Shown here one piece after another: positions 3,855 to 24,124 of a stretch of 64,000 nucleotides of DNA. The notes under the pieces are model-generated. The model saw nothing but the letters and a program-made list of their open reading frames with translations, had not been told where the DNA came from and searched no databases. Source of the DNA: Chloroflexi bacterium bin20 (GTDB lineage: Bacteria; Chloroflexota; Anaerolineae; Aggregatilineales; Phototrophicaceae); contig MPMG01000010.1 of assembly GCA_002238485.1 (NCBI GenBank), positions 79,765 through 143,764 of the forward strand, given 5' to 3'. The translations under genes were made by a program, and so were the position numbers. How positions within the stretch are numbered: the first letter of the stretch is position 1; each line of letters begins with the position of its first letter.

Positions 3855-5093
3855 TCAGGCAGGCGCAAGGGGCGGCTTGCGCTGCAGGGTCTCGGGCACG
3901 AGGAAGGTGAATATGCTGGCCGCCAGCAGCCCCGAACCGGCAATCACCCAGATCGCTGAGCTGAGCAGCAGCGCATCCGCCACCACGCCCACCACCAGCG
4001 GCGCGCCCGTATGTCCGACATCGCCGATGAGCCGCCAGACTCCCAGAAACTCCCCCCGCGACCGGGCCGGCGACAAGTCCGAGCCCAAGGTCATCATGCT
4101 GCCCGCGCCCAGGCCATTGCCCAGGCCGATCAACGTGGCCGCAAACAGCAAGCCGCCGAAGCTCGCCGCGAAGGGCACGAGCGCCATGCCCAGCGCCTGA
4201 ATGCCGAAGCAAGGCACGATTGCGAACTTGCGCCCGTAGCGATCCATCAGCCAGCCAGCCACCATGAACAAGCTGAAATCCACCGCCACAGAAATGCTGA
4301 TGATCAAGCCGATCTGGTCGACAGCCAAGCCCAGCGCATCGGCGGCGAAAAGCGGAATGATGACTGTGCGCCCGGCGCGGATCATCTGCCCGAATACTTG
4401 CGCCGTGCCCGCCGATGCCAAAATGCGCGCATTCTGCTGGAACACGGCAGCGATGTGGAAGCCATGGCCATCGTCCGCGGATTTGCGGCGCGCGCTCTTC
4501 TTGCCGCGTGTGAACAGCGCGACCAGCGCGAAGCCGATTGCTGTCGCCAGCGCGACCGCCAGGAAGGTCGTCCGCATGCCCACCATGCCCGCCAGCAACC
4601 CGCCGATCGCCGGGCCAATGAATCCGCCCAGCCGATGCGTGCCGCCATACATGGATATCGCTTTGCCGCGCTGCCCCAGGTCGACATGGTTGGTGATGTA
4701 AACATGCGCCGAAACGGTATACATAGACCGCCCGAATCCGGTGATCAAACGCAGCAGCAGCACCACCCAAATGGACGATGCGAAGAAGAGCAAGCCAAGC
4801 GAAACCGCTTTGACCAGCAGGCCCATCATCATGACTTGCTTGTTGCCAAAGCGCCGCTGGATCATGCCGGTCGGCACATCGGCGATCAATGTACCGATGC
4901 CCTCGCCAGCCAGCACCAGACCAATGAGCACATAGCTAATCTCGAAGTCGGCGGCGTACAGCGGCAGAATGGGCACGAGCAAGCCGTGGCCCAAAGTGAC
5001 CATCAGCGCCGGCAGATAGAAGGACAAAATCAGCGCGCGCAAGCCCACATCCGGTTGTTTGAATCTCGGCAATCTCAGGGGGACGGTTGGCAT
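3855..5093 (-). CDS. MFS transporter
   Basis: About 12 hydrophobic segments; MFS-like N-terminus (SFYLPALMVTLGHGLLVPILPLYAADF). Confidence 0.85.
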   Translation of the reverse strand: MPTVPLRLPRFKQPDVGLRALILSFYLPALMVTLGHGLLVPILPLYAADFEISYVLIGLVLAGEGIGTLIADVPTGMIQRRFGNKQVMMMGLLVKAVSLGLLFFASSIWVVLLLRLITGFGRSMYTVSAHVYITNHVDLGQRGKAISMYGGTHRLGGFIGPAIGGLLAGMVGMRTTFLAVALATAIGFALVALFTRGKKSARRKSADDGHGFHIAAVFQQNARILASAGTAQVFGQMIRAGRTVIIPLFAADALGLAVDQIGLIISISVAVDFSLFMVAGWLMDRYGRKFAIVPCFGIQALGMALVPFAASFGGLLFAATLIGLGNGLGAGSMMTLGSDLSPARSRGEFLGVWRLIGDVGHTGAPLVVGVVADALLLSSAIWVIAGSGLLAASIFTFLVPETLQRKPPLAPA

Positions 5094-5131
5094 TCGGCTA
5101 GTCTAGCGAGGTTCGCCCATTTGCGAAACGA

Positions 5132-6328
5132 CTAATCGCGCGAGCTTTCGCGGATGACTCTTCCCAGGGTCGCAATCGCACCCTCGATTGTGGCTTCGTC
5201 CACTCGCGTGAAATTGAGCCGCATGGTAGACAAGCCGTCGGCGGGGTTGATGTAAAAATATTTGCCCGGCACAAATGCAACCTTCTGTTCCACAGCCCGC
5301 CAATACAAGTCCTCGCCATCCACGTCGGGCGGTCCTTCGATCCAGATGAACATGCCGCCTTCGGGTTTGATCCAGCGGTAGTCGGCGGGTATATGCGTGT
5401 CCATTGCATTCAACATGGCTGCCTGCCGCGGAGCATAGAGCGCGATGATCTTGGGGACCTGCCGCGATATGTAGCCGCCGCAGATATATTCTGTAGCCAG
5501 CGCCTGGGCATAGGTATTGCTGTGCAGGTCGGCGCCCTGTTTTGCCGTATACAACCAGTCGCGGATGAGTGGCGGCGCCAAGCAGAAGCCCAAACGCAAG
5601 CCCGGCGCAAAGATCTTCGACAACGTGCTGACATAGACTGTGTTGTCCGGCGCATAGGTCTGCAGGGCTGGCACCGCCTCGCCACGATAGCGCAGGTCGC
5701 TGTAGGGGTCATCTTCGATCACCAGCGCGTTCATGCGCTTGACGATGTCGGCGATCTGCTGACGGCGTTGGCGGCTCATCGTGCGCCCGGTGGGATTTTG
5801 GAATGTTGGTACCAGATAGATGAACTTGATAGCTTGCTGCTCCAGCACGGCTTGCAAGGCTTCGGGCACGATGCCTTCGTCGTCGCTGGCGATGCTGACA
5901 TAGTTGGGCTGGTAGACGCCAAATGCCGAAAGCGCGCCCAAATAACTGGGCGATTCCAGCGCGATAACATCGCCCGGGCTCAGCAGCACCTTGCCCAACG
6001 TATCCAGCACGCTCTGCGAGCCATTGAATACCAGCAGCTCATCGGCAGTCGCGGCAATGCCTTTGCCCGCCAGGAAACCCGCCAGCGCTTCGACAAAGGG
6101 CGCAAAGCCTTCTGTGCGGTCGTATTGCAGCGCCGCCGCGCCATAGCGATCCAGCACTGCTTCGTTTATTTTGTACAATTCTTCGATAGGGAAGGTTTCT
6201 GGCGCTGGGATGCCACCGGCCAGGGACACCATGCCCGGCTGTGATACCACCTTGAGGATTTCGCGAATCTGGTTGCGCTGCATACTCTGCGTGCGCTTGC
6301 TGAGCAAATGCTGAAAGTTGCGCGTCAT
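5132..6328 (-). CDS. PLP-dependent aminotransferase (class I/II, 2-aminoadipate aminotransferase-like)
   Basis: MVSLAGGIPAPETFP...VYVSTLSKIFAPGLRLGF PLP-lysine motif; start set at MTRNFQ (6328). Confidence 0.85.
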   Translation of the reverse strand: MTRNFQHLLSKRTQSMQRNQIREILKVVSQPGMVSLAGGIPAPETFPIEELYKINEAVLDRYGAAALQYDRTEGFAPFVEALAGFLAGKGIAATADELLVFNGSQSVLDTLGKVLLSPGDVIALESPSYLGALSAFGVYQPNYVSIASDDEGIVPEALQAVLEQQAIKFIYLVPTFQNPTGRTMSRQRRQQIADIVKRMNALVIEDDPYSDLRYRGEAVPALQTYAPDNTVYVSTLSKIFAPGLRLGFCLAPPLIRDWLYTAKQGADLHSNTYAQALATEYICGGYISRQVPKIIALYAPRQAAMLNAMDTHIPADYRWIKPEGGMFIWIEGPPDVDGEDLYWRAVEQKVAFVPGKYFYINPADGLSTMRLNFTRVDEATIEGAIATLGRVIRESSRD

Positions 6329-9005: not shown

Positions 9006-9246
9006 GCCCAGCCCCTTCCACGCCGTACAGCGATCGGCGCAGTCCCAGAATTCAGTATAGTGGAGTCCATCATTCCTCGAAAAGGGGCGCTCACCTCCTA
9101 ATTATCAGGTAAGCGCGCATCCTGGATTTTCGACCTGGATTTCTGTAGCATTGGATGCGGGCGGGCGGGGTTCAAAAGCGCTCGCGGATTTGCATTTTGG
9201 CGCTTGCGCTGTAGACTGCGCCCAGGGCGCGGCTCCACACTGGTTA

Positions 9247-9639
9247 TCAGGTTTGATCCTCGAAGTCGGGCGCTTCGCCCATCTTCTCCAGATCGCTTTT
9301 GCGTTCGTCCCGCAGCATGAAGTCGTTGATGATGTACATATTGGATGTCTGTCGGCCGCCCAGGTGGCGCGTGCGCGTCTCGATGTAGCCTTTGATCTCC
9401 AGGGATTTCAGCTTGCGCCGGACAGTTTTGACTGAGGAGTCTGTTTCGCGGGCGATTGTTTTGGCGCTGGGGTAGCTGTAGAGAGGGTAGTTGTCCGGGT
9501 TGGCGCGCCAGATCAGGTAGAAGAGGATGGCTTTTTCTATGGGGCAGCCGATGTTGACTTTGTAGAGCTGTTGGAAGTAGCGCATTTTGTTGATCTTTTT
9601 GCTGGTCTTCTTCGATTCGCTTGCATATGTGTTCGTCAT
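9247..9639 (-). CDS. Winged-helix/HTH_36-like DNA-binding protein (phage replication or regulation)
   Basis: MTNTYASESKKTSKKINKMRYFQ...YSYPSAKTIARETDSSVKTVRRKLKSLEIKGYIETRTRHLGGRQTSNMYII. Native ATG at 9639; the N-terminal part of the 9247-10293 track ORF is not credible. Confidence 0.75.
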   Translation of the reverse strand: MTNTYASESKKTSKKINKMRYFQQLYKVNIGCPIEKAILFYLIWRANPDNYPLYSYPSAKTIARETDSSVKTVRRKLKSLEIKGYIETRTRHLGGRQTSNMYIINDFMLRDERKSDLEKMGEAPDFEDQT

Positions 9640-9682
9640 CCTGTATCCTTCAAGGCGAAGTGTGGGTAGACCGCTCTTCGGG

Positions 9683-9714
9683 CGCCCTGAGTTTCGGCTC
9701 AGGGCGTTTCCTTT
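9683..9714 (+). terminator. Perfect 9-bp hairpin followed by T-rich run
   Basis: CGCCCTGAG-TTTCGG-CTCAGGGCG then TTTCCTTTT. Lies upstream of the minus-strand HTH gene, so it could also be a 5'UTR element. Confidence 0.55.
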
Positions 9715-9850
9715 TGGGATTGTATACCAGCCTCGAAATCCCGCAAGCGACCACATAGAAAATATGTTCTGATTGCGGCCAGCGCAGGAAAAAAATAGCG
9801 CCGAGCTTGTGAGGGCGGGTTCTGTGGGCGATGCGAGGTTTTGTGTAGCC

Positions 9851-9900
9851 AGGTCGTCCGCGCGGAAAAATAAGCTTGCGTTTTTGAGTACGGACGACCT
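9851..9900. repeat. 50-bp nested inverted repeat
   Basis: AGGTCGTCCG-cgcgg-AAAAA-taagcttgcg-TTTTT-gagta-CGGACGACCT; a further CGAGGT (9834-9839)/ACCTCG (9917-9922) pair flanks it. Confidence 0.8.
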
Positions 9901-10057
9901 GACGGCGGAATGTCTTACCTCGTTCGCTGAGATTGAACCCGCGCACGCCCACTCTTTGTCCCAGCTGTGGCGTTTGCTTCTGCGGTTGCGGTCTCTTGCG
10001 ACTGTCGGCGAGGCTGGGCGACGTGGGACGGCGCTTTTGTCCGTTCGGGGCAAGCCA

Positions 10058-10610
10058 GGCGGCGTTCTTTGCCGCCATTGGCGCAGCCGCTTTGCCGCGT
10101 TCTTTGCGGCAAGCGGGCGGGCATTGGCGAACACGCCGGCGGCGTTTTTTGCCGCCAAGATGTTTCGCCGCCCGACATGGGGCAGGGGGAGCGCGCGGCG
10201 GCGGCGTTCTTTGCCGCAACGCAATCGCGCGCGGGGGGGCGCGGGCCGCCGCCGCCTGTTCTTTAGGCGGCGAAGCGGGGGTAGCCCCCCCATTACCGCA
10301 TCTACCCGCCCGTCATCGGCGCTTGTCGCCGAGATTTACCGCCGCTTTGACGTGCGGCGGCGGGCGGGCAGGAAGAGGGGGGGAGCGGCGGCTTGCCGAC
10401 CAGCGGGGGGGGGGGGGGCAGAACGCCGCGTGTTTTGCGGGGGGGGGGGGGGGGGGGGCGGGGGGCCGCGCCCCCCCCCCCCCCCCCATCCGCGCGCACA
10501 GGGTGGGCGCGACCGAAGCCAGCGCCGCCGCGTTCTTTGCGGCGGAGTCAAGCGACCGGCGAGGAAGCGGCGGGTGTCTTTTGCTTTTGGCGGCGCGTTC
10601 TTTGCGCCGC
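10058..10610 (+). repeat. Array of 7 short hairpins with conserved GTTCTTT (one GTTTTTT) loop
   Basis: Hairpins: 10058-10076 GGCGGC/GCCGCC; 10094-10110 GCCGC/GCGGC; 10138-10156 GGCGGC/GCCGCC (loop GTTTTTT); 10201-10217 GCGGC/GCCGC; 10250-10272 CGCCGCCT/AGGCGGCG; 10525-10545 CCGCCGC/GCGGCGG; 10590-10610 GCGGCGC/GCGCCGC. Confidence 0.85.
10405..10487. repeat. Poly-G (G14, G20, G6) followed by poly-C (C17)
   Basis: G14 at 10405-10418; G20 at 10439-10458; G6 at 10460-10465; C17 at 10471-10487. Possible sequencing or assembly artefact. Confidence 0.6.
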
Positions 10611-10700
10611 GAAAGACACCGCGCGCGGATTTTTGTTTTCAGGGGTCAGAAGGTGGGATTTCACCAGGTCATTCAGGTCGGGGGCTGTCTGCAAAATCGC

Positions 10701-10913
10701 TTAGAGGGCAACGTGGCGCTTCGACTTTTCCGGGTTTGAGCTGGAATTGGCGCATTCACGGCATACGACCATCAAGATGCTGTGGCTCATGTAGCTGGCT
10801 CTGTAGCTGTCCGGGTAGGGTCGGCGACATTGGTTGCAAAGACAGAAGCATTGCTTGGCGCCTGCCGCTTTGCAGTCCTTGCAGACCAGCTTGATCGTTG
10901 ACGATTTCATCAT
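10701..10913 (-). CDS. Small Cys-rich (zinc-ribbon-like) protein
   Basis: MMKSSTIKLVCKDCKAAGAKQCFCLCNQCRRPYP...VVCRECANSSS; overlaps the HNH stop (translational coupling). Confidence 0.55.
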   Translation of the reverse strand: MMKSSTIKLVCKDCKAAGAKQCFCLCNQCRRPYPDSYRASYMSHSILMVVCRECANSSSNPEKSKRHVAL

Positions 10914-11239
10914 GGTATCAGTGGCAGTTGCCCGGCGGCTATCAGCCGCTCTCGCTCTTGCCGCGCCGCGTTCTGTTTGCGGCGCATGATGTGTATGCGC
11001 ATGTCGTAGGTCAGGTGGCAGCGTTGGCAGAGGGCGGCCAGGTTATCGCGTCTGTTGTCTTCGGGCATGTGGTTCAGGTGGGCGACTGTCAGGATGACGA
11101 TTGATCCTGTCTGCGGGTGTGGCTCTCCGTGTTCGGCGTCGCACCACTGGCAGCGCCAGCCTGCCTGCTGTCGGATGCGCAGGGATATGGCTTTCCAGTC
11201 TGCCGGGTATCTGTGCTTGTGTTCGGGCTTGATGGGCAT
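10910..11239 (-). CDS. HNH endonuclease
   Basis: CQWCDAEHGEPH...VILTVAHLNHMPEDNRRDNLAALCQRCHLTYD: CxxC...H...N...CxxCH. Confidence 0.88.
   Translation of the reverse strand: MPIKPEHKHRYPADWKAISLRIRQQAGWRCQWCDAEHGEPHPQTGSIVILTVAHLNHMPEDNRRDNLAALCQRCHLTYDMRIHIMRRKQNAARQERERLIAAGQLPLIP
10963..10985 (+). repeat. Variant hairpin of the GTTCTTT family inside the HNH gene
   Basis: GCGCCGC-GTTCTGTTT-GCGGCGC, 7-bp perfect stem. Confidence 0.55.
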
Positions 11240-11303
11240 GGCGACAGTATATCCAGCTTGATGATGGCAGGCAAGACGGGCTGAACTGACGAGATATTCT
11301 TGG

Positions 11304-11357
11304 GCCGTTCTCTCGCGCCGCGGTTAGGTCGGGGACGGCACGGCGCGGGAGAACGGC
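11304..11357. repeat. 17-bp-stem hairpin between divergent HNH and TerS
   Basis: GCCGTTCTCTCGCGCCG (11304-11320) pairs with CGGCGCGGGAGAACGGC (11341-11357): 17 pairs with a single G-T wobble and a 20-nt loop. Confidence 0.8.
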
Positions 11358-11403
11358 AGACACCGCTGCGGCGCGGCCGCCGCCGCCCCCCGCGTAGGGG
11401 TGG

Positions 11404-11422
11404 GTCTGGGCAACGCCCAGAC
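11404..11422. repeat. 8-bp perfect hairpin upstream of TerS
   Basis: GTCTGGGC-AAC-GCCCAGAC. Confidence 0.75.
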
Positions 11423-11465
11423 AGTGGTCGCCCTTGCTCGCGATAATTTGTGGTATTGACAGCAT

Positions 11466-11475
11466 GTGCTAGAAT
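11466..11475 (+). promoter_or_regulatory. Extended -10 promoter element before the phage late operon
   Basis: GTGCTAGAAT (TGC-TAGAAT extended -10), resembling the element at 22128-22133. Confidence 0.45.
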
Positions 11476-11538
11476 GCAGGAATGTTGGCGTTTCTGCCTG
11501 CGGGCAGGGGTATAGCTCTCAAAAAATCGGGGGGAAAA

Positions 11539-11868
11539 ATGTACAGGCTCAATCCCGATCCAGGCTGGCTGCGGAAGGACATCAAAAATGCGAAACAGTT
11601 GGCAGCGGACCGCAAGGAGCTCGACTCGTGGCTCTTGGCGCGGTTGGTGCAGCTTGCAGCTGGCGATGGCTCTTCGGCTTGCCGGGCAATAGAAACATTG
11701 ATGTCGGCGCCGTCGCAAGAAGGAGTGGAATATGATGCAGCAAGAGTTGACGCGCTCGCCGAGCAATACGCCGTCCGTATTCTCCGAAGAATGGGCTATC
11801 TTGTTCAGTCACCGGCGCAGGGCGGCGAGGATGAGTCTGCTGGATTTCATCCTGTACACGATGCCTGA
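11539..11868 (+). CDS. Putative small terminase subunit
   Basis: Small ORF with purine-rich SD (gggggaaaaatg) immediately before the large terminase; assignment mainly positional. Confidence 0.5.
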   Translation: MYRLNPDPGWLRKDIKNAKQLAADRKELDSWLLARLVQLAAGDGSSACRAIETLMSAPSQEGVEYDAARVDALAEQYAVRILRRMGYLVQSPAQGGEDESAGFHPVHDA

Positions 11869-13180
11869 TTACCAGGTCGCCCGCCATCATGAATTGATGG
11901 TGGAAGAGATCGAGCGCGCTATTGCCGCTGACAGCGGCCGCCTTTATATCGGGATGCCGCCGCGCCACGGCAAAAGCGAAACCGCGACCATCCGGACGAT
12001 TTGTTGGCACATCGGGCGCTATCCTGAGAAACAGATTATGCTGCTTTGCTATGGCCAACAGTTGGCGAATGAGTTTTCGCGGCGAATCCGGTCAATTGTT
12101 CGCGACGACCTGCGCTATCGGGAGTTGTTTCCGCATGTGGCGCTGTCTAAAGAGCGAGCGCGTCTCGATGATTGGAAGACCACGGCGGGCGGCGGCTTGA
12201 AGTCAGTCGGCGTGACGGGCGGCGTGACGGGTCATGGCGCGGATTTGATGATCATTGACGATCCGCACAAGGAAGGCGACGCGGAGAGTCTGGAGCTTTT
12301 GGACAGCGTGTTCACCTGGTATGCGACGGCGGCGCGGACGCGTCTTGCGCCTGGGGCAAGCATTATCTTCATCATGACGCGCTGGCATCGGCTGGATTTG
12401 GCGGGACGGCTGCTGGAATTGCAGAGCACAAGCTCAGACGCGGACCAATGGCGAGAAGTTGTGCTGCCGGCGCTGGCGGGATCCGATGATATCCTGGGGC
12501 GCGCGAAAGGCGAAGCCTTGTGGCCGGAGCGATTCAGCCGCGAAAGTTTGTTGGCGCTGCGGGCTTTGGATGATCGGTATTTTCAGGCGCTGTATCAGAA
12601 TAATCCGCGCGGCGCTGATGATGTCATGTTCGATATTGATAAAGTCCGTTGGGTCGATGGCTACGATGCCAATGCTGGCGAGATATTCTGGACTTGTGAT
12701 CTGGCGACGAGCAGCCGGGACAGCGCGGACTATAATGTTTTCGCGCGTTGGGGCAAGATGGGCGATTCGATCTGCCTTATCGAAGCGCATCGGCTGCGCA
12801 TGGCTTATTCTGGCGCTCGGCTGCGCCTGCTGCAAATCCGGCGACAGCATCCTGATGAAATGATTGTCTTCCCCAAAGACTTGCTGGAACTCTTAATGTT
12901 CAAGCATTTACGCGACGAGCTTGGCGTGGGTCGTCTTACGACTGTGGCCATGAAAGGCGACAAGGTTCAGAAGGCGCAGCATCCGGCGATTTTGGTCAAT
13001 AATGAGCGTTTAGCGGTGGTGCGCGACACGGGCAGCGACAATGATTATTTCGTCCGCGAGCTCGGCGAATTTCCGATGGGACGCTATGATGATTGCGTCG
13101 ACGCTTTCAGTGTTGCGGCACATTACATGCGCGTGCCTGGTGAGGTCGAGCTATTTCTGAGGGGTGGCCGCAGTGTTTGA
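11831..13180 (+). CDS. Phage terminase large subunit
   Basis: RLYIGMPPRHGKSETATIRT (Walker A-like), DLMIIDDPHKEGDAES (Walker B), FWTCDLATSSRDSADYNVFARWG (nuclease). The ORF opens at 11732; MSLLDFILYTMPDYQVARHH (11831) is the likelier start. Confidence 0.93.
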   Translation: MSLLDFILYTMPDYQVARHHELMVEEIERAIAADSGRLYIGMPPRHGKSETATIRTICWHIGRYPEKQIMLLCYGQQLANEFSRRIRSIVRDDLRYRELFPHVALSKERARLDDWKTTAGGGLKSVGVTGGVTGHGADLMIIDDPHKEGDAESLELLDSVFTWYATAARTRLAPGASIIFIMTRWHRLDLAGRLLELQSTSSDADQWREVVLPALAGSDDILGRAKGEALWPERFSRESLLALRALDDRYFQALYQNNPRGADDVMFDIDKVRWVDGYDANAGEIFWTCDLATSSRDSADYNVFARWGKMGDSICLIEAHRLRMAYSGARLRLLQIRRQHPDEMIVFPKDLLELLMFKHLRDELGVGRLTTVAMKGDKVQKAQHPAILVNNERLAVVRDTGSDNDYFVRELGEFPMGRYDDCVDAFSVAAHYMRVPGEVELFLRGGRSV

Positions 13181-14390
13181 GAAGATTCGCTCGTTCTTTC
13201 GGGCGCGCGGGGAAGTCACGAACAAAGGCGCGACGGGTCGGCGTGTCAGCGACTTGCAGGACAGCCCTGAGTGGATCTGGGTGCAGTCGCCGGACTTCAC
13301 GAATGATCTGGCAATTTACGCTTACCGGGAGTGGATTAGCACAGCGATAGATCGCGTTGCCGAGCTCTGCGTATCTGTGCCGATGATTGTGCGCGAGGCT
13401 GGTGGACTTGGCGTTTATGAAGACCATCCGCTGCTGGCGCTGCTGGGGACTTACGGGCGTCCGAATCGTTTGCAGGACAGCTTTGAGTTTATGGAAGCGC
13501 ATTTTAAGCGCATGGACATCTGGGGCAATGATGTCTGGTTTTGGCAATCTGAGTTTGGGGGCGCGCCTGACGAGGTCTATCAGCTGGACATGCGCAATGT
13601 GCAGATTCGCGTTGTGGATGGCTTGCAGTGGTATTTCTACAATGTCGGCGGCGTTGAGCATCGGATTTCGCCTGAGCAGGTGACGCATTTCCGCCGCTCG
13701 AATCCGACAGCCACCGGCGTATTTTGGGGCATGTCGGCTGTAGAGAAGCTGCGCAATGTGGCAGAGACGGACCGCTTGATGACGAAGTGGAATCAGAGCT
13801 TTTTTGAAAGCGGCGCGCCCAATGGCATCATGATTGTGGACGCGGATTTGGTCGACAGCAAGCAAGCGCGGCAGATGGAATCGGAGTTCAACGAGAATCC
13901 CAGGGGCAAGCGGCGTCTGGCTGTGATACGCGCCCGCCAGGGTTCGGCAGTATGGCATGAAGCGCTGATGAAGCAGCGCGATTTGGATTTCAATGATGGT
14001 CGATTGATGACGCGTCAGGCGGCATTTGACGCTTTGGGCTTTCATGTGGGCGCTGTGTCTGAGGCATCGACTGAGGCGCATGCGCGGGTAGCTGAGGCAT
14101 TGGTGCGCGAGTCGGCGTGGATTCGCCATCGGCGGACGGCGAGCGCATTGAATACCGCGCTGGAGTTTTGGCCGGGCGCTGGACAATACCGCGTGGACTT
14201 CCATGATGTGCGCGCGACTGACTGGGAGCGCGAGTCGAAGAAGCTGCAAGCGGTCATGCCCTACATGACCATCAACGAGGTGCGCAGCCATTATCTTGAG
14301 TTGGGGCCGCTGCCGCGGGGCGATCGGTTTGCAGAAGTGTCCGTGCCGAACGAATTGGCTGTTGAAGAGAGGATAACTACCGATGCGTGA
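13164..14390 (+). CDS. HK97-type portal protein
   Basis: WISTAIDRVAELCVSVPMIV...FEFMEAHFKRMDIWGNDVWFWQ...FFESGAPNGIMIVDADL; position after TerL; GTG start. Confidence 0.88.
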   Translation: MAAVFEKIRSFFRARGEVTNKGATGRRVSDLQDSPEWIWVQSPDFTNDLAIYAYREWISTAIDRVAELCVSVPMIVREAGGLGVYEDHPLLALLGTYGRPNRLQDSFEFMEAHFKRMDIWGNDVWFWQSEFGGAPDEVYQLDMRNVQIRVVDGLQWYFYNVGGVEHRISPEQVTHFRRSNPTATGVFWGMSAVEKLRNVAETDRLMTKWNQSFFESGAPNGIMIVDADLVDSKQARQMESEFNENPRGKRRLAVIRARQGSAVWHEALMKQRDLDFNDGRLMTRQAAFDALGFHVGAVSEASTEAHARVAEALVRESAWIRHRRTASALNTALEFWPGAGQYRVDFHDVRATDWERESKKLQAVMPYMTINEVRSHYLELGPLPRGDRFAEVSVPNELAVEERITTDA

Positions 14391-14649
14391 GCCTGACGAT
14401 GCAATTTTCGTCGATGAAGGCTGCCTTGATTGCGGGCAGAGTCGGAAGATAGTCCGTGGCGATGCTTTTCCATGCGCCTGGGATTCTCTGTCTGATGGTC
14501 AGCGGACATTCTTGCGCCGGTCAAGGGTCACGCCTGCTGATTGGTGCGCATCGCGTTTGACTGCTGAGAATGCTGTAAAGCGCGAAACGGGCAGCAGCCA
14601 GCCCTATGATCTGCCCAAGGCGATACCGATTCAGAGCGACTTGCTATGA
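14383..14649 (+). CDS. Small phage protein of unknown function
   Basis: 88-aa ORF with Cys residues (EGCLDCGQSRKIVRGDAFPC), overlapping portal and capsid genes by 4-8 nt. Confidence 0.55.
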   Translation: MREPDDAIFVDEGCLDCGQSRKIVRGDAFPCAWDSLSDGQRTFLRRSRVTPADWCASRLTAENAVKRETGSSQPYDLPKAIPIQSDLL

Positions 14650-16718
14650 GTCATCTGCGTCGGCGCGGGGATCTTGTTGATGGCATTCTGGTGCCTTTTT
14701 CGGGGCCTGAGGATGACAGCTATGGCACCTGGTGGGACGCGCGGACTGATTTTCGTCTGGACATGTACGCGCCGCATCCGATTTTTTATTTTCATGGTCT
14801 GCGCGATTATGAGCAGCATGGCCGGCTGCGCAAATTTGAGCTGCGCCCGGAGGGATTGTGGGCAGAAGGCGTATTGACGGACAGCGCGAGTCCGCTTTTT
14901 GAGCTGCTGGATTCGGGACGGGCGGCCTGGTCTTCGGCGACGATGCCGCTGGTTGCGAGTCCGCCGCGCCCTGACGGGTACATCGCGGTTTGGCCGATAG
15001 TAGAAGGCAGCATCGCGGACGCTGGCGAAGTGTCTGCGCGAAGGGGATTGACAGCTGCGGATTATGCGCGCGCCGTGGCGAATCGAGAATCGTATGTGCG
15101 CAGCAAATGGGGAGGCTGGCAGATGGAGCCGCAAGATCCGAAGTTGCAGGATAACAAGGACCCGAAGGAAACTGGATCGAATGGGCAGACGCCGGAAGGC
15201 GTAGCCGCGCCTTTGCCTGATGTTGCCGCGAATGACGCGTCAGCGCCCCCCGCGCCTGATTTGAGCGAGCAAGAGGAATTCGCTCGCTGGAAGGCGGAGA
15301 AGGCCAAAGAGGAACGGCGCAAAGAGATCGAAGAGGTGGCGCGAGCGATTTTGTCGCCGCCGCCTGAGGATGCCAAGCGCAAGCTGCCGGCGGCAGGGGG
15401 CAAGAAATCGCCTGTGGACTTGAAGGATTCTGTCGTGCGCGTGTCTTCGCCCTGGGATCAATTTGGGCTGCTGGGCATGACGATGCATTATGAATCCAAA
15501 GCTGCGTTTCGCGGGCGCAACTCGAATTTCAGCGACCAATTCGATGACAAGTTCTTCCGGGCGCTGGCTTACAAGGTGGCTGAGCAGTGGAAGACCGACG
15601 AAAAGGTCGAGCAGGAATACATCCCTACGCCTGAGGGCTTGCTGGAAGTGATTCCGATGCGCTGCATCGACCAGTCTACCTATCGCAACTGGACGCGTTA
15701 CCTGCCGCACATGCGCGCTGACGAAGCCATGATGTCGACTTTGGCGAACAAGGGCGATGAGCTGGTGCCAACCTTGCTGTCGTCGTCGCTGTATTACTTC
15801 ATGCGGCTGGAGTCGCGGGTGTCGAATCTCTTTCGTTCGTTCATGATGCCCAGCCAGCCTTATGACTATCCCAAGATCACGAAAGGTCCGACTTTTGTGA
15901 GCGCCGGCGAGCTGTCTGACGCGGCTAATTTCAGTGTCTCGACCTCGAATATTGATTATTCGGATATCGGCACGGACAAGGTGACGTTTGAGGCTGGCAA
16001 GCTGGCGGCCATTACCTTGTTCAGCGAAGAGCTGGTCGAGGATTCGACTGTCGCCTGGGCAGAAGCGGCGGCGCGGATTTATGTGGAAGAGATGGCGCAT
16101 GCCTTCGACTTTGTGCTGCTGAATGGCGATACCAGCGCCAGCGCCACCAACATCAGCTTCTATGGCACGAATCCGAATGCCGCCACGGAGACCAAGCGCA
16201 TCCTGACTTTTGACGGCATTCGCAAAGGCATCGTGGCTGCGGACCAAACGGCTATCGCCACGATTGCGGATGATTCGATCTTGTCGGTCATGAAGACGAT
16301 GGGGCCGCGTGGGGTCATCGGGCGCGACATCAGGAATCTGGTCTGTATCGCGCCGCCGGAGGTTGGCTTTGAGCTGGACGCGCTGGATGCTTATGAGGGC
16401 CTGGACAAGGTTGGGCCGCAGGCGACTTTGCTGACCGGGCAGCTGGGCTTCTGGCGGTCTGTGCCGCTCGTCATCACAGAAGAATTTCCGCAGACGGACG
16501 CGAATGGTCGCGTTGATGACACGGCGGCTTCGAACACGAAGGGCGCGTGGATTGTGGCTAACCGCAATGCCATCCTGATTGGCATGCGCCGGATGCCCAT
16601 GCTCGAGCAGGGTCGCGATGCTGGCGTTGACGGTCGGTTCATTACGGCGTCTTTGCGCGCGGACATCCAGTTGATGGAGCCTGGCGCTGCGGCCATGGGC
16701 TATAACTCGACGGTGTAG
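14646..16718 (+). CDS. Fusion protein: prohead protease - scaffold-like linker - HK97-fold major capsid protein
   Basis: N-terminus GILVPFSGPEDDSYGTWWDARTDF...PIFYFHGL...GRAAWSSATMPL...WPIVEGS matches prohead-protease motifs. Charged linker EEFARWKAEKAKEERRKEIEEVARAIL. C-terminus KITKGPTFVSAGE...KLAAITLFSEELVEDSTV...FDFVLLNGD is MCP-like. Confidence 0.85.
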   Translation: MSHLRRRGDLVDGILVPFSGPEDDSYGTWWDARTDFRLDMYAPHPIFYFHGLRDYEQHGRLRKFELRPEGLWAEGVLTDSASPLFELLDSGRAAWSSATMPLVASPPRPDGYIAVWPIVEGSIADAGEVSARRGLTAADYARAVANRESYVRSKWGGWQMEPQDPKLQDNKDPKETGSNGQTPEGVAAPLPDVAANDASAPPAPDLSEQEEFARWKAEKAKEERRKEIEEVARAILSPPPEDAKRKLPAAGGKKSPVDLKDSVVRVSSPWDQFGLLGMTMHYESKAAFRGRNSNFSDQFDDKFFRALAYKVAEQWKTDEKVEQEYIPTPEGLLEVIPMRCIDQSTYRNWTRYLPHMRADEAMMSTLANKGDELVPTLLSSSLYYFMRLESRVSNLFRSFMMPSQPYDYPKITKGPTFVSAGELSDAANFSVSTSNIDYSDIGTDKVTFEAGKLAAITLFSEELVEDSTVAWAEAAARIYVEEMAHAFDFVLLNGDTSASATNISFYGTNPNAATETKRILTFDGIRKGIVAADQTAIATIADDSILSVMKTMGPRGVIGRDIRNLVCIAPPEVGFELDALDAYEGLDKVGPQATLLTGQLGFWRSVPLVITEEFPQTDANGRVDDTAASNTKGAWIVANRNAILIGMRRMPMLEQGRDAGVDGRFITASLRADIQLMEPGAAAMGYNSTV

Positions 16719-16720
16719 CT

Positions 16721-17278
16721 GTGGCTTATCCTGTTCTGAGCGACATCAAGGCGCGTTTGGGAATCAGCGACAGCAGCCAGGATGCGGCATTGCAGTCGGC
16801 GTTGAATGCCGCGCGCGGGGCGGTTGAGAATTATTGCGGCGCCCGCTGGGAGTATCCTGACTCTGAGACGCGCGAATTTCGCTTGTGGTATGGCAATTCG
16901 AATATTGGCGAGTCGGCATTTGATGTAGCTAATCCTGGCTTGCTCAGCTTCACCGCGGCGCGGGCCTGGAAGAAGTGGCAGCTGCCGGAAGCTATCGCCC
17001 TCGAAAATGTCTTGGCGCGGCGGAATCCTGTCGCTGGCGTGGGGCCTTATGAGCGATTGATCGTTCGCGGCAGTTACGATGTCCTCGAGGTTACCGGCGT
17101 TTGGGGTGAGGGTCTGACTGCTCCGGATGAAGTTGCCGAATGCGTCATGCTGGTGGCTATGAGTTTGTTCGCCGCCGGGACTGGTCAGGGGCTGGCTGTC
17201 GATGACGAGGTCGACCGCTCGATATTCGATGACAAGATGCTGGCTTTCTTGCTGCAAGGGCATCGGAGGTATCGATGA
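16721..17278 (+). CDS. Head-tail connector (gp6-like)
   Basis: MAYPVLSDIKARLGISDSSQDAALQSALNAARGAVENYCGARW, typical of gp6-family adaptors, directly after the MCP. Confidence 0.8.
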   Translation: MAYPVLSDIKARLGISDSSQDAALQSALNAARGAVENYCGARWEYPDSETREFRLWYGNSNIGESAFDVANPGLLSFTAARAWKKWQLPEAIALENVLARRNPVAGVGPYERLIVRGSYDVLEVTGVWGEGLTAPDEVAECVMLVAMSLFAAGTGQGLAVDDEVDRSIFDDKMLAFLLQGHRRYR

Positions 17279-17715
17279 CCTTGACATCGGCTTTAGGCGC
17301 GCTGGCGGCCATGCGCTGCGAGGGCATTGACGATGACCGGCATTATCCGATTGGGCAGCCCGCGCCAACCATTCTTGTGCATCCGTCCATCATCTGGCGT
17401 TACGCGCATGTGGAAGATGCTGTGTTGAAGCCTGAGATCTATGATGCCCAGGCGGGCGCGTTGGTTCTGGGCGCGCGGCTGTCGCTGCTGGTTCGGTCTT
17501 ATCAGGGCATCGCGCAATCTGACGAGTTGGCGAATGTATCTCTGTGGGGCGACCGCCTGCTGGCTATGCTGGGCGCGGACATGTTCCTGGGCGGCAGCCT
17601 GACAAAGCCGCTGTCGGGGCAGATGGCGCGCATCGGCGTCGTGTCTCACAGCGCCCGCCGTTATATTGGCGCGCAGATTGACGTGATTCTGAGCGTGCGC
17701 ATCGAGGTCGCGTGA
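17275..17715 (+). CDS. Phage head/tail completion-like protein
   Basis: Position after the connector, ATGA-type overlaps, size 146 aa. Confidence 0.55.
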   Translation: MTLTSALGALAAMRCEGIDDDRHYPIGQPAPTILVHPSIIWRYAHVEDAVLKPEIYDAQAGALVLGARLSLLVRSYQGIAQSDELANVSLWGDRLLAMLGADMFLGGSLTKPLSGQMARIGVVSHSARRYIGAQIDVILSVRIEVA

Positions 17716-19269
17716 TTCGCTTCTACCTGGACACCGATGACGATTTTGATGTCGCGCATGGTCTCGATATCAGCGAAGAGATCATCAGCTGGGAGAGCCG
17801 CCGGGCGGCTGACGGGATAAGCCGCGCCGAGACTGACGGGATTTTGGCGGCGACGGTACGGCGCGGACGGGCGCTTGCGAGCTGGTGGCGCGCGGGTCGT
17901 CTGCTGGAAGCGCGGGTCGATGACGATGTGTTCTTTCGGGGCTTTCTGCTGGATGCGATTGGCGCCGGGGACGGGCAGACGCGCATACGGGCCGCGACCT
18001 GGCTGCAGCATTTGAGCTGGCGCGGGCGAACTCCTGGCGTTGTAGGCTTGTCCGCCATAGACGCGCTGCGGTCGGTTGTGAATGCCGCGGCGGATGGGTT
18101 TCCGGGCGCCAGCCGCCCATCGGCGGCATTGATCGAGCAGACGTTTGCTGAGCGGCGTCCGCGGCGGCTGTATTGGGGCGCGACTGACCGCCCGCTTTTT
18201 TGGGGCGATGCCAGCAAGCCCTTGTATTGGCGATACGCGCCCGACGAATTCACAGGCGTTTATGAATATCTGCGTCTTGGGGATACGGATGTTCTTGGGG
18301 ACAGAACTTTGTTCGGACCGCCCCCACCGGCCGTGGCGGGCGAGTCTGCGGCTGTGGTGGATCGACTGACGGCAGTTGAATACAGCATCGAGAATTATGA
18401 ATACGGGCTTTATCGAGACGAAGTCGCTGTGCTGGCAGCAGGCGAGATTGGCTGGGTTTTCAGCGGCGGCGAAGACGACATCGCCTTCATCGGGCGCGCG
18501 AAGAGCGCCGCGCCGCCAGGCGAGCCAATGGCGGTAAGCCAGGCGGTCTATGGCCGCTATGCGTACGCATGGCAGGTTGGCGAAGATGCTGTCGGGCAGG
18601 TCGTGGGGCGGCAGCCGGACGTCCAGGAAAGCCGCGGCGTGATCTATCGGCAAGAGAATGTTATCGCGGCGCCGGGCGTCTCGAGCTGGAATGTGTCGGT
18701 AAGAGACCGCGGGCGCCCCGTAGAAGTCGCTGGCGATTTGCGCGTCGATTTCCCGATGATTTCGGGCGTCAGCATCGGCGCATCGGCAGCCTTTGGCGAT
18801 TTGCTCATCCAGGTGTTCAACAATAGCGGCGGCTCGATGACGATAGACTGGATAGAGGTATCCGGGACTTCGCGGGTCTATCAGGGCGGCTTGTACGGCT
18901 CGGCTGTGACGGGTCGCTATGGCGGGGGGGGGGGGCGGGGGGCGGGGCGGGGTGGGGGGCGTGGCGGGGGGGTGTGCGGAGCGGCGTGGCGTCTTTGGCG
19001 GGGCTGCGGGCTTGTCTGCGGCGCTGGATTACTGGTCGGCTGTATTGGGCCCTGGCGGGCTGGAATTGCGCAGCGTGACGCTGGATGGCCGCCGTTTTCG
19101 GGATGCCTGGCGCGGAGAGCTTGGCGGACTGCTGCGGGCAGACGCCCTGGCGCGGGAAGGCATGGATGGCGGGCCTGATCTGTATTGGATCGTGGGCGTG
19201 CGCGGCAGCGGCGCGCCAGAAGTTTTGACCATCACCTATGATTTGATGCGTTATGAGGAGGGCAGCTGA
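17712..19269 (+). CDS. Phage tail/baseplate-like protein with frame break at a poly-G tract
   Basis: Frame 1 (17712-19178) degenerates after RVYQGGLYGSAVTGRYGGGGG. The other frame (18919-19269) gives LSAALDYWSAVLGPGGLELRSVTLDGRRFRDAWRGELGGLL...LTITYDLMRYEEGS and its stop overlaps the next ATG. Confidence 0.65.
18924..18972 (+). repeat. G-rich tract (G12 plus further G4-G7 runs) inside tail gene
   Basis: G12CG6CG4CG4TG6CGTGGCG7; encodes a Gly/Arg-rich linker; site of the frame change. Confidence 0.8.
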
Positions 19270-19799
19270 TGGCCTGGACAGAGCCCAAGACCTGGCGCGA
19301 CACGCATGATCGAATGAATGCCGCCAATGCAAATCTTTATATCCGGGACAATCAGAATGCGCTGCGGGCCGAGCAGGCGGCGCTTGGGCAGCGGGTGACG
19401 AATGTTGAGAACAGGACAGCGCGGGCTGGTTACAGCGCGGCGACAGAGCAGGCGATTAGTTTCGACTCTCGCGGACGAAATCGGGCTGTGCTCACGACTG
19501 TCACGCCGCCGACTGATATTTTGTTCATGGAGTTTCTCTTTCGGATGTCTTCTAGCAATGTATGGGGCGCTCTTGTAAAGCTGGATTATTCGATCTGGTC
19601 GGGCTTTGCGCCGGTGTTGGCTGGCACTGTGCTCAGCAGCGACAATTCTCGTGCTTTCATAATGGATATATCTGGTGGAGGAGCGTTAGAAAATTTCTTA
19701 TTTGTAGGGAAAGGAGTAGGCGATGTCATCTGTTTGTCGACAGTGCTTTGGGAAAGTGATCGACTGCCCAATCGTTTCTCGGTGCGGTGGTATCGCTGA
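19269..19799 (+). CDS. Tail-fibre/appendage-like protein
   Basis: MAWTEPKTWRDTHDRMNAANANLYIRDNQNAL resembles the N-terminal motif common in phage tail proteins. Confidence 0.6.
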   Translation: MAWTEPKTWRDTHDRMNAANANLYIRDNQNALRAEQAALGQRVTNVENRTARAGYSAATEQAISFDSRGRNRAVLTTVTPPTDILFMEFLFRMSSSNVWGALVKLDYSIWSGFAPVLAGTVLSSDNSRAFIMDISGGGALENFLFVGKGVGDVICLSTVLWESDRLPNRFSVRWYR

Positions 19800-19812
19800 T
19801 GGGAGAAAGCCG

Positions 19813-19941
19813 ATGGACAAGTACAAGCGAAAGCGGTCTCGTTGGATTGTCAATGTTTTATGCCTCGTTCTGGGGGTCTGCGGCATCCTTGTGTTGGTGG
19901 CAGGCTTGACAGTCGATTTCTTCGGCTTCATGTCTTACTGA
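19813..19941 (+). CDS. Small single-TM protein
   Basis: MDKYKRKRSRWIVNVLCLVLGVCGILVLVAGLTVDFFGFMSY; stop overlaps the next ATG. Confidence 0.45.
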   Translation: MDKYKRKRSRWIVNVLCLVLGVCGILVLVAGLTVDFFGFMSY

Positions 19942-20279
19942 TGGGCGGGCGAGTCGGCGAGCTTGGCGTGACAGCATCAATTGTCATCTGGGCAGGGATG
20001 GCTCTGTTTTTCGTGTGGACGCTGGATAATTTTTCCAAGCTTCGCGCGCCCCCCTTGGATCCACAGCTGCACGAGGAAACCATATCCAAGAATGGCTTTG
20101 ACAGCGCTGTTCCATATCGGAAGGCGTGTCGTCGTCCAGGGTGTACAAAGACAAAGGATTTCACCCGTCAGTCACGGACAGCAGGCTTCAGGAATGCTTT
20201 TGCTGTCGCGTTGATCATGTCGCTGTCGGGTTGGATGGTTTTCGCTTTGGCGGACAGGCTGCAGGGAAGGGGCAGTTGA
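19941..20279 (+). CDS. Small protein with two TM segments
   Basis: MGGRVGELGVTASIVIWAGMALFFVWTLDNF...FAVALIMSLSGWMVFALA. Confidence 0.45.
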   Translation: MGGRVGELGVTASIVIWAGMALFFVWTLDNFSKLRAPPLDPQLHEETISKNGFDSAVPYRKACRRPGCTKTKDFTRQSRTAGFRNAFAVALIMSLSGWMVFALADRLQGRGS

Positions 20280-20431
20280 TGGCGCTGCGGGGATTTTTTG
20301 CCTTCGGCGCGTGTTTGGGCGCGAAACCGGGCGAACGTGCGCCCCGCCAGTCGATTTTACGGCATGCCCTTGACCTGGCTGGTATGCCCTGGTAAGATTT
20401 CAGGCGCTTAGACGGGAAGTGGATATCCGGC

Positions 20432-22108
20432 GTGACTGACCAGCCTGTGCTTATTGACGACAGCGACGATGGCGAAGCCATCGATGAGTCGCTGCTGGTC
20501 TTGATGGGGCAGGCGAACACGGACAACGTCTTCGCCATCGCGCTGAGCCGCCTTTTGCCCTGGCTGGGGCCGCAGCTCACGGCTGCGCTGCTGACGCGCC
20601 TGGCGGCTGTGGAAGCGCTGACCAGCGAGATCTTCATAGACGAGCTGCCGACCTGGGTTGGCGCGACTGTGGCGACTGCGGCTCTCGCTGTGGCGCCCTA
20701 TGTGGATGGCAGGCCGCCGGGCAATGACGATGTGGTCGCTTATCGGTGGGATGCGCAGGCGACGGTCAACACCGATGACAATGTGCGGCTGTACATGCGG
20801 CTTGACGGGACGCTGGATCAGTCTTCGGCGCGCATTCTTTCGGTGTACAACGACGAGACCACGCCTATCCGCGCGGCGTCTTTCCTCAAGGTCTTCACGC
20901 AGCGCCAGTATGACTATTATGTGCATGTCACGCAGGCTGGCGGCGAGCAGCTGCAGTTCATCGGCTTCAATCGCGGGACGCAGCTGCGGATGCAGACGGC
21001 GGGCAGCCTGCGGCATTTGCGCTGGGGCGGCGACCTCACGAATGCCACGATGCGCGCGGCGATTTTTCAGCGCAACGGGCTGTTGGCGGAAGACGGGCAG
21101 CTTGTGTCCATCAGCGGCGACCATTTGGAAGCTGTCGACGCGCCGCCCGGCAGCGATGATCAGGCGCGGTCGGGCGTAGCCAGCAATCTGGCGGCGATAC
21201 AGGCGCTGCAAGCGAGCAAGCTGGCGATAGCGGACGCGTTCACCCAGGCGTTGGCGGACGCTCGCTATGAGCGCCTGGGCAGTGGCGAAAGTCCTACGCC
21301 GGTTGCGCCGGAAGTCGTGTTTTTCAGCGATGTGACTGTGGGCGCGAATGCGAATTTGAACAATCTGTCGGTCAAGACAGATTCGACATCGACTGGCACC
21401 CTGGTCGAGTCGGTGGCGGCGACTGGCGTACGCCTGCGAGCTGGCGCCTACCTGCTGCACTTCAAGGGCACGGTCGATGCGACTGGCGAGCGCTTCAATC
21501 CGCAGCTGGGGGTTATGGCGGCTGGTCTTGGCGGTCTGTCGGTGACTTCGCCTGTGTATTATCGCGGCACGACAGGCGAGGCGGCGACTTCGTGGGAGGC
21601 TGCGCTGCATTTGGCGGACGCGACTGATCTGCAATTTTGGGCGCGCCAGGGGCAATACAGCACGGCTATTGGCGGCATCGGGGGGGCTGGCGTTCTGTCT
21701 GAGCTGGCCATGACGATTTTCCCGATAGGCGGCATCAAGGGCGACCCTGGGGCGGCGGCTCCTGAGCCAGCCATCGCGCCCTACGCGACGGTGGACATGC
21801 ATCCGGCGGGACTGGCGACCGGGGCAGCGCCCGCGCAATTTTGGTTTCGTCTGAGCGACAAGCAGACGACGCGGACTCTGAGTGGCATCGCCGCGAACAT
21901 CGTGGGACAGCAAGTCACTGTCTCGCCGCTGCCGGACACAGACGATTATTTTGCTGTGGCGCTGGACAGCACGCAGCAGGCGAATTTGGCGCGAAGCGTG
22001 CAGCGCGGCGACAGCCAGAAGCGCGTTGTTCTGACGTTGTCGTTCACGGATGGCTCGACCTACGACGAGCAGCTGCGGCTGTTGGTCAATAATGCGCTGT
22101 TCGCTTGA
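20432..22108 (+). CDS. Putative tail fibre/receptor-binding protein
   Basis: 558 aa, late-operon position, GIKGDPGAAAPEP collagen-like motif, beta-rich C-terminal repeats. Confidence 0.6.
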   Translation: MTDQPVLIDDSDDGEAIDESLLVLMGQANTDNVFAIALSRLLPWLGPQLTAALLTRLAAVEALTSEIFIDELPTWVGATVATAALAVAPYVDGRPPGNDDVVAYRWDAQATVNTDDNVRLYMRLDGTLDQSSARILSVYNDETTPIRAASFLKVFTQRQYDYYVHVTQAGGEQLQFIGFNRGTQLRMQTAGSLRHLRWGGDLTNATMRAAIFQRNGLLAEDGQLVSISGDHLEAVDAPPGSDDQARSGVASNLAAIQALQASKLAIADAFTQALADARYERLGSGESPTPVAPEVVFFSDVTVGANANLNNLSVKTDSTSTGTLVESVAATGVRLRAGAYLLHFKGTVDATGERFNPQLGVMAAGLGGLSVTSPVYYRGTTGEAATSWEAALHLADATDLQFWARQGQYSTAIGGIGGAGVLSELAMTIFPIGGIKGDPGAAAPEPAIAPYATVDMHPAGLATGAAPAQFWFRLSDKQTTRTLSGIAANIVGQQVTVSPLPDTDDYFAVALDSTQQANLARSVQRGDSQKRVVLTLSFTDGSTYDEQLRLLVNNALFA

Positions 22109-22133
22109 CCTTTGTGTACAGATGTGCTAGACT
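22105..22133 (+). promoter_or_regulatory. Sigma-70-type promoter before small-gene/lysis module
   Basis: TTGACC - 17 nt - TAGACT with TGTGC extended -10. Confidence 0.65.
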
Positions 22134-22349
22134 GTGGACATGAACAAAGACATTCCTGAATCATGGGTATACATGCTAGGACCCGCATACACTCACTGGA
22201 GGGATACTATGTTGGCAGGACTTATCGCCGCGGCGGTCGCGGCTTTGTTGAATCACGCGCACGAGGTCGGCGGACCTGATGCTATTCAGGAAGCCGCTGA
22301 CGCTATCCGGAAGGCTGTTGACGATCATCCGTTGGTGGATGTGGAGTGA
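22134..22349 (+). CDS. Small phage protein (paralogue A)
   Basis: LAGLIAAAVAALLNHAHEVGGPDAIQEAADAIRKAVDDHPLVDVE, similar to the following ORF. Confidence 0.5.
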   Translation: MDMNKDIPESWVYMLGPAYTHWRDTMLAGLIAAAVAALLNHAHEVGGPDAIQEAADAIRKAVDDHPLVDVE

Positions 22350-22570
22350 TGAGCGAACCAACGGTAACAGTCAGGATCGCATTTGAAGGTTTAGCGCCTT
22401 CTGCTGGACTCGCCTTTGGGGTGGTCAAGGCCTTGTTGGATCATGCGTACAAGGTCGGCGGGGCTTCTGCCATGCACGAAACGGCGGTTGCCATCAAGAA
22501 GGCTGTTTATCAGCATGCTTTGCCTGATGTTGACGATCATCCGTTGGTCGAGAAGGTCAAGCCAGAGTAG
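22346..22570 (+). CDS. Small phage protein (paralogue B)
   Basis: AGLAFGVVKALLDHAYKVGGASAMHETAVAIKKAV...DDHPLVEKV, related to 22134-22349; shared 21-bp DNA repeat. Confidence 0.5.
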   Translation: MMSEPTVTVRIAFEGLAPSAGLAFGVVKALLDHAYKVGGASAMHETAVAIKKAVYQHALPDVDDHPLVEKVKPE

Positions 22571-22683
22571 TCGCGCCGTAGAGCCTCGCTACGCTTCGCC
22601 CGCGCGCATTTTGGTACGTAGGTACATTGCGCGGCGCAAAATGGCGTGGCGGGGCGCAGCGTGCGCAGAAGAGGGGATTTATC

Positions 22684-22893
22684 ATGCATGGTATGCAGAA
22701 GTTGATCCACATGCGGTCGTTTTGGACGGCTGTGTTTACCCTGCTGGGCATCGTGCTGCATGAAGTGGCGGGCTCGGACATCATCAACGCGGACACGGAG
22801 TCGGTCTTTGTGGCGACCATCCTGGCGCTGGTGGGCGGCTCGGCGGCTTCTGACGCTGTCGATTCTCATCATGCGGGAAGGGGCGCTGATTGA
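22684..22893 (+). CDS. Holin-like small membrane protein
   Basis: MHGMQKLIHMRSFWTAVFTLLGIVLHEVAGS...ESVFVATILALVGGSAASDAVDS; two TM segments upstream of a transglycosylase. Confidence 0.55.
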   Translation: MHGMQKLIHMRSFWTAVFTLLGIVLHEVAGSDIINADTESVFVATILALVGGSAASDAVDSHHAGRGAD

Positions 22894-23147
22894 TGAGCGA
22901 AACACAGGTAAGAGCTGAGCGGATATATGCGGGGCTAGCGCCAGCAGATGCTTATGGCATCGAAATGGCCAAGCATGGGTGGTTGATTGTCTGCGCGATA
23001 ACGTTGGATGGGCTGGGCTCAATCCAGCTTCATCCTGGCTTTGACTGGTCCAACGCCAAGCATTTGATACCACTGGTAAAGCTTTTGTCTCAGGAAGCGG
23101 TTGCGGCTCTTGAAGCGGGACCGCCTGGTTCATCGGAGGCGCATTGA
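22890..23147 (+). CDS. Small phage hypothetical protein
   Basis: 85-aa ORF in an ATGA-coupled chain; N-terminus (MSETQVRAERIYAGLAPADAYG) resembles that of 22346-22570. Confidence 0.4.
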   Translation: MMSETQVRAERIYAGLAPADAYGIEMAKHGWLIVCAITLDGLGSIQLHPGFDWSNAKHLIPLVKLLSQEAVAALEAGPPGSSEAH

Positions 23148-23344
23148 TGGCGAATGAATCACGGAGTGAGGTTCTTAGGTCTATGGTTGACAGCATGTGG
23201 GAAGCTGTTTTGGAATCGTTTGCGGGCTTGTCTGAGGCAGAGCAGCGCGACAAATACGGGGAGTTGGGTTATGTTGAGCAAGACGAGCTTCGCCGTGGCT
23301 TGACCAGCCGTGGTCTCTTGCCTGAGTGGTTGGAGGCGCATTGA
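23144..23344 (+). CDS. Small phage hypothetical protein
   Basis: 66-aa ORF coupled to its neighbours. Confidence 0.4.
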   Translation: MMANESRSEVLRSMVDSMWEAVLESFAGLSEAEQRDKYGELGYVEQDELRRGLTSRGLLPEWLEAH

Positions 23345-23838: not shown

Positions 23839-23920
23839 GCTTGTGGATGTGATCTCTTTCTGCGTTGGCGGAGGGCTGACGTTTTGCATTATGTACTATC
23901 TGCTGCTCAACGCGCCCTGA
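23831..23920 (+). CDS. 29-aa TM peptide at end of lysis operon
   Basis: MVRLVDVISFCVGGGLTFCIMYYLLLNAP; overlaps the transglycosylase stop. Confidence 0.35.
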   Translation: MVRLVDVISFCVGGGLTFCIMYYLLLNAP

Positions 23921-23955
23921 CATGGCGAGCGCGTGACATCGTTTTTGGCATGACT

Positions 23956-23986
23956 GCCGCTTTCACATCGAAAGCGGCTTTTTTTT
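23956..23986 (+). terminator. Rho-independent terminator ending phage late operon
   Basis: GCCGCTTTC-ACATC-GAAAGCGGC followed by T8. Confidence 0.9.
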
Positions 23987-24012
23987 GTCAATCCGCCGGC
24001 AATTAGGGGGGA

Positions 24013-24074: not shown

Positions 24075-24124
24075 AAGAATAGAAACTAAGAATAAGTCCC
24101 CACCCGCGTTCCGCCTCGCAAGTT

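Follow-up and report, generated by a model that had tools for sequence, protein, structure and literature searches.

Seven perfect hairpins that present a common 7-base loop in a single orientation lie in the non-coding region of a phage-like element of ~15 kb, and the explanation preferred here, at a probability of roughly 0.37, is that they are multivalent recognition sites, read through the loop, in an origin-like region of that element. The window, by which we mean the whole stretch of DNA that was analysed, comprises 64,000 nt of Chloroflexi bacterium bin20 (GCA_002238485.1, contig MPMG01000010.1, positions 79,765–143,764 of the forward strand). According to this origin-like explanation, we infer that the element replicates from the array region, which would form all or part of its origin; when the region is single-stranded or extruded, a replication protein would meet the same loop of 7 bases on each hairpin, an initiator, a helicase loader and a primase being the candidates, and the several copies would permit multivalent loading, as in single-strand initiation hairpins. 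For the stems, pairing alone would matter; their sequence could drift while template switching of the DNA preserved perfect pairing, and selection would keep the sequence of the loop.

Table 1. Hairpins, genes and other features of the element (window coordinates; scores are those of the hairpin covariance model).
Feature	Position	Strand	Description	Score (bits)
Prophage-like element	~9060–24100		~15 kb, approximate extent; host-type genes on either side	
HTH_36 protein	9247–9639	-	130 aa, replication-initiator type; HTH_36 8e-9; phrog_428, phrog_270 1e-12	
Terminator-like hairpin	9683–9706	+	CGCCCTGAG-TTTCGG-CTCAGGGCG; T-rich tail; ~45 nt upstream of HTH start	
Conserved non-coding block	9745–9970		AGAAAATATGTTCT, A-tract, GAGCTTGTGA, inverted repeat CAGGTCGTCCG/CGGACGACCTG at 9850–9901; common to the circular relative	
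Hairpin 1	10058–10076	+	6 bp stem GGCGGC, loop GTTCTTT	29.9
Hairpin 2	10092–10112	+	7 bp stem TTGCCGC, loop GTTCTTT	32
Hairpin 3	10138–10156	+	6 bp stem GGCGGC, loop GTTTTTT	28.4
Hairpin 4	10201–10217	+	5 bp stem GCGGC, loop GTTCTTT	28.9
Hairpin 5	10250–10272	+	8 bp stem CGCCGCCT, loop GTTCTTT	27.8
Y-shaped structure	~10306–10371		approximate ends; outer arms CCCGCCCG/CGGGCGGG; read directly	
G and C homopolymer tracts	10405–10487		long, mutually pairable; assembly length uncertain	
Degenerate member	10427–10441	+	CCGC-GTGTTTT-GCGG; weaker, read directly; additional to the seven	
Hairpin 6	10525–10545	+	7 bp stem CCGCCGC, loop GTTCTTT	33.3
Hairpin 7	10590–10610	+	7 bp stem GCGGCGC, loop GTTCTTT	33
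Cys-rich protein	10701–10913	-	70 aa, no family match	
HNH endonuclease	10910–11239	-	phrog_1571 6e-26	
Outlying hairpin	10963–10985	+	GCGCCGC-GTTCTGTTT-GCGGCGC; inside HNH gene; additional to the seven	23.8
Terminase large subunit	11732–13180	+		
Portal	13164–14390	+	after terminase	
Protease-like/capsid protein	14646–16718	+	after portal	
Transglycosylase-type lysin	near 23.3–23.8 kb			

Structure and Covariation of the Hairpin Array

As shown in Table 1, the seven stem-loops of like orientation given in the preliminary description at 10058–10610 all occur on the + strand and pair perfectly in the stem, the loop being GTTCTTT in six of them and GTTTTTT in one. The closing GC/GC pairs are identical in six of the seven, hairpin 5 alone being closed by T-A, and hairpin 7 sits within an outer stem (GGTGTCTTTTGC/GCGAAAGACACC). 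The Y-shaped structure encloses two hairpins with other loops (10316–10332 and 10339–10360), and the segment 10300–10380 that contains it folds with z = -2.6 (+) and -6.4 (-). Long G/C homopolymer tracts are found in the element's non-coding DNA at 24015–24075 as well as in the array region, and their length may be a matter of assembly or slippage.

The array is real, and chance is excluded. GTTCTTT occurs 11 times in the 64-kb window against 4.2 expected, with 6 of the 11 in the array, and in 1000 dinucleotide shuffles of 10030–10640 at most two hairpins shared a loop, compared with the six observed. A scan of 3.0 Mb, nearly all viral, for at least three hairpins with the same loop and different stems returned the array, tRNA T-arm-like loops (TTCGAAT) and one cluster with a 4-base loop, the last of which is likely due to chance.

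Two-sided changes occur at all seven stem positions with pairing mostly kept, values matched by none of 500 shuffles, and the covariation signal vanishes once the stem register is slid. Pairwise identity between copies is 0.96 in the loop, 0.51–0.52 in the arms and 0.24–0.32 in the flanks, the last being the chance level; since the flanks are unrelated, the shared unit is only ~17–23 nt and was not spread via duplication of larger pieces. The unrelated flanks and the covariation of 7/7 columns thus uphold the original view of a fixed loop with covarying stems that did not arise by simple duplication. The statement that the stems differ is correct but needs softening: next to the loop, three of the seven share the GCGGC type, and nearly all stems consist of G and C only, so that the number of stem types is four or five instead of seven.

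The Host Element and Its Relatives

The array occupies a non-coding region of 1.06 kb (9640–10700) between the HTH_36 gene and the Cys-rich and HNH genes. For the ~15-kb element no clear att repeat was found, no integrase was found among the element proteins searched, and its major capsid protein has no relative among plasmids and one remote match among phages. The interval separating the HNH gene from the packaging genes holds a long inverted repeat (CCGTTCTCTCGCGCCG/CGGCGCGGGAGAACGG, 11302–11357), and a GmrSD-type restriction endonuclease is encoded at 844–2862, a few kb to the left of the element.

The nearest elements are two IMG/VR records, whose terminases are 63% and about 70% identical to that of the window; no terminase relative of at least 40% identity was found in 396 genomes of the class, and a terminase scan of GTDB contigs gave distant relatives only. 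The relative L016 seems not to include a comparable non-coding region. The sole complete relative, IMGVR_UViG_2619619053_000002 (records L015 and L341), ends with the same 90 bases with which it starts and is therefore apparently a circle; its 15,496 bp agree with the size of the window element. Its genes run in the order HTH gene, folded region of more than 1 kb, Cys-rich ORF and HNH gene, the last oriented opposite to that of the window, and it also encodes a terminase and a transglycosylase. The HTH protein next to the equivalent region matches phrog_270 (3e-4). The window element, L015/L341 and L016 form a small group of phage-like elements, possibly tailless or satellite-like.

Part of the folded region of the complete relative is homologous to window positions 9745–9970, and the remainder is not alignable; in the inverted repeat that the two share, two pairs are changed on both sides. 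GTTCTTT-loop hairpins are absent from the region in the relative. The covariance model finds there a GC-closed hairpin with the loop GTTTTTCA (record E 0.003), a second hairpin with the loop GCTGTTT lies in the same orientation, and a core of ~50 nt is carried twice within different perfect outer stems. The habit of keeping a core while changing the paired stem is common to both elements; the loop is not shared. Homologues without the hairpins, or with random loops, had been named at the outset as evidence against a functional array, and in this respect the complete relative speaks both ways, as it has hairpins in the same place and the loops are others. Within the conserved block, the near-palindrome AGAAAATATGTTCT (9757–9771) is kept in the relative and is a candidate repressor operator. 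The terminator-like hairpin also has a counterpart (L341 2318–2345), and both are plus-strand hairpins placed ~45 nt upstream of the minus-strand HTH start of their element, as if an antisense initiator-leader transcript stopped there (cf. plasmid copy-control RNAs).

A Second Occurrence of the Loop and Searches Elsewhere

An unrelated viral record of 77.8 kb (L162) contains two hairpins with the GTTCTTT loop, whose 9-bp stems differ in sequence and pair perfectly; they end ~85 bases from the gene of a 129-aa HTH_36 protein (phrog_1032, phrog_270). Iteron-like GGTTCTCTTTTATTTAT repeats lie between the hairpins and this gene, and the replication module to which they belong also encodes a primase-type zinc ribbon and a DnaB helicase. 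In all three elements, namely the window element, L015/L341 and L162, the HTH gene and the T-rich loops are on opposite strands, and BLAST detects no similarity of the window HTH protein to the HTH proteins of the other two. No other same-loop pair with different stems of at least 7 bp occurs in the 3.2 Mb scanned, which bounds the background rate of such pairs only at roughly <1 per Mb. Because L162 came up in a search for the loop, and 3.2 Mb is only a small part of the whole collection, its loop could match that of the array by coincidence, but the presence of the hairpin pair is not due to chance. The gathering score is narrowly missed by two hammerhead type II-like matches in the same record (803–872 and 3943–4008, minus strand) and exceeded by two int-alpA RNA matches (5063–5133 and 5168–5235, minus strand).

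The covariance model built from the seven hairpins recovered, at E<=0.01, the array and no copy elsewhere in the 3.66-Mb host genome, and nothing in 153 other genomes of the order. The preliminary description knew of no described element with this loop, and Rfam has no family matching the array; across the whole window, a SAM riboswitch (45950–46057) is the sole match above gathering score, and near the array there are only weak matches (E 2–5). No description of a GTTCTTT loop or of such a hairpin array was found in open-access text, and phages and plasmids gave no credible BLAST match to the non-coding region. Several candidates from pattern searches were set aside. Among the single GCSGCGTTCTTTGCSGC matches listed from IMG/VR, one per stretch, 52 of the 120 listed are unpaired at the third position, and most of the others stop at 5–6 bp; all of these are taken as chance matches, probably in coding DNA. 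The two- and three-copy matches among those listed, besides L162, L191 and L160, are direct or coding repeats without stems; L160, with two imperfect hairpins in an AT-rich contig, is probably unrelated. Apart from the window, the phylum-wide search returned repeats based on GCGTTCTTTGCG and no hairpin arrays, and a 29-nt match in a genome of the same family lies inside a coding gene and is due to chance.

Function of the Array

The preliminary description had offered a replication origin as one of several guesses, and this one comes out strongest, since an HTH gene of the replication-initiator type lies next to the region in the window element, its circular relative and the unrelated contig alike. 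In its favour are the matches of the window HTH protein to HTH_36 and to PHROGs for replication initiation; against it, this protein is a bare DNA-binding domain, the loop is changed in the relative (GTTTTTCA, GCTGTTT), and the array does not include the block conserved with the relative (9745–9970), where an origin would naturally be sought. A wider proposal must be regarded as doubtful, namely that small circularising phage-like elements use a multivalent hairpin array which their own replication protein reads, as single-stranded DNA or RNA, via a fixed 7-base loop and two closing pairs, with drifting stems repaired by template switching and with loops switched in relatives, implying co-evolution of loop and protein.

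It is possible, if tentatively so, that the region instead encodes a large structured non-coding RNA of the minus strand, whose seven A-rich loops (AAAGAAC) would be recognised by an RNA-binding protein in the manner of a CsrB sponge or an ornate phage RNA. Transcription of the region probably runs in the minus direction, since the flanking HNH, Cys-rich and HTH genes all have that orientation; the region 10030–10640 folds with z = -8.9 (-) and -7.5 (+), and that of L015/L341 with z = -11.9 on the minus strand; and the helix common to the two elements has two double changes, a third change being G-U on the minus strand. Shorter stretches give -5.1 and -4.6 for the two strands of 10030–10390 and -7.1 and -5.9 for those of L015/L341 2690–2990, while coding stretches of the element, used as controls, stay close to the chance level. 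However, when the G-run is omitted, both strands fold about equally well with no consistent difference, and this parity does not favour RNA over DNA. None of the five inner pairs of the stems is G-U, which is what DNA palindromes would show, and the wobble pairs point both ways between strands, the outer stem of hairpin 7 having G-U pairing only on the + strand. The lack of an Rfam match and the reversed HNH gene of L015/L341 also count against an RNA. The composition of unpaired bases was tried as a strand test and is not diagnostic, since coding controls are alike. Given the initiator-type neighbours in three elements, an origin-like DNA role is preferred.

Covariation alone does not prove selection on structure, because template switching during replication creates and mends perfect stems with multi-base compensatory changes (PMC8794818), and it may explain the persistence of perfect stems in the array. 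That the stems are nothing but such a by-product, their arms rewritten in GC-rich, slippage-prone DNA and their shared loop left over from recent common ancestry, is nevertheless unlikely. The long G and C tracts of the region and the doubled core of L015/L341 in its different perfect outer stems fit such a process, but the loops are held (identity 0.96) as the arms change (0.51), the unrelated flanks give no sign of recent segmental duplication, and the uniform orientation is left unexplained. Loops held while arms drift, together with the single orientation, are not accounted for by template switching and favour a loop-read site.

A role in packaging, in which the small terminase or virion proteins would recognise the hairpins, has a low probability. 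The array lies ~0.9–1.4 kb ahead of the first packaging genes, and a further record, L191, has two weaker hairpins ~5 kb ahead of its terminase; against this, the hairpins of L162 belong to a replication module in a record with no Terminase_6N match, and no cos or pac feature was identified. A non-autonomous mobile palindrome family inserting copies without flanks, another of the early guesses, would suit a shared unit of only ~17–23 nt with unrelated flanks, but it is very improbable, as the 3.66-Mb genome and the relatives hold no further copies beyond chance.

Comparison with Known Systems

If the loop is a docking site, the array would be a rare clean separation of recognition from stem sequence, repeated seven times, and would offer an exceptionally simple means of studying how hairpins are recognised, be it at an origin or in RNA. 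It is also a natural test case for the question, raised in PMC8794818, of whether perfect covarying stems result from selection or from template switching during replication. Among the known systems, REP-like palindromes do not fit, as there are no dispersed copies and the array is the only occurrence in 3.66 Mb. In lambda, the N/boxB hairpin has a GNRA-like pentaloop and is normally present once per nut site. The array resembles boxB in consisting of phage hairpins that would be read through a loop and differs from it in its seven copies and in its 7-base loop, which is found on either strand in place of the pentaloop, so the early suggestion of a boxB-like antitermination site is not supported. 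tRNA arms do not apply, as ARAGORN finds no tRNA in the window and the loop misfits the T-loop TTCRANY; nor do integron attC sites, whose core GTTRRRY the loop GTTCTTT misfits, or hairpin promoters of N4-type virion RNA polymerases, as the ~15-kb element has no ORF >690 aa and no giant polymerase gene.

CsrB/RsmZ-type sponge RNAs likewise combine many hairpins, one loop motif and variable stems, but their motif is GGA (CsrA review, PMC7652899), which neither the loops GTTCTTT and GTTTTTT nor their complements AAAGAAC and AAAAAAC contain; as RNA the array would show AAAGAAC or GUUCUUU. GOLLD and ROOL are large, ornate and strongly folded bacterial non-coding RNAs, some of them phage-associated (PMC12286853). 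The array region is like them in its strong folding and phage link, whereas it has one known relative and no covariance-model match, gathering or weak, to these, nor any above gathering score to other Rfam families. Single-strand initiation or primosome hairpins, such as the n' site of phiX174, G4-type sites and the ssi of RSF1010, are single or paired sites of defined sequence. The array would be like them as folded single-strand DNA near rep genes, non-coding and read by replication proteins, and non-coding DNA beside an HTH gene matching replication-initiation PHROGs is found in the window, L015/L341 and L162; it is unlike them in having seven copies that share only the 7-base loop and the closing pairs. 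By this comparison, the array would come closest in its working to single-strand initiation hairpins.
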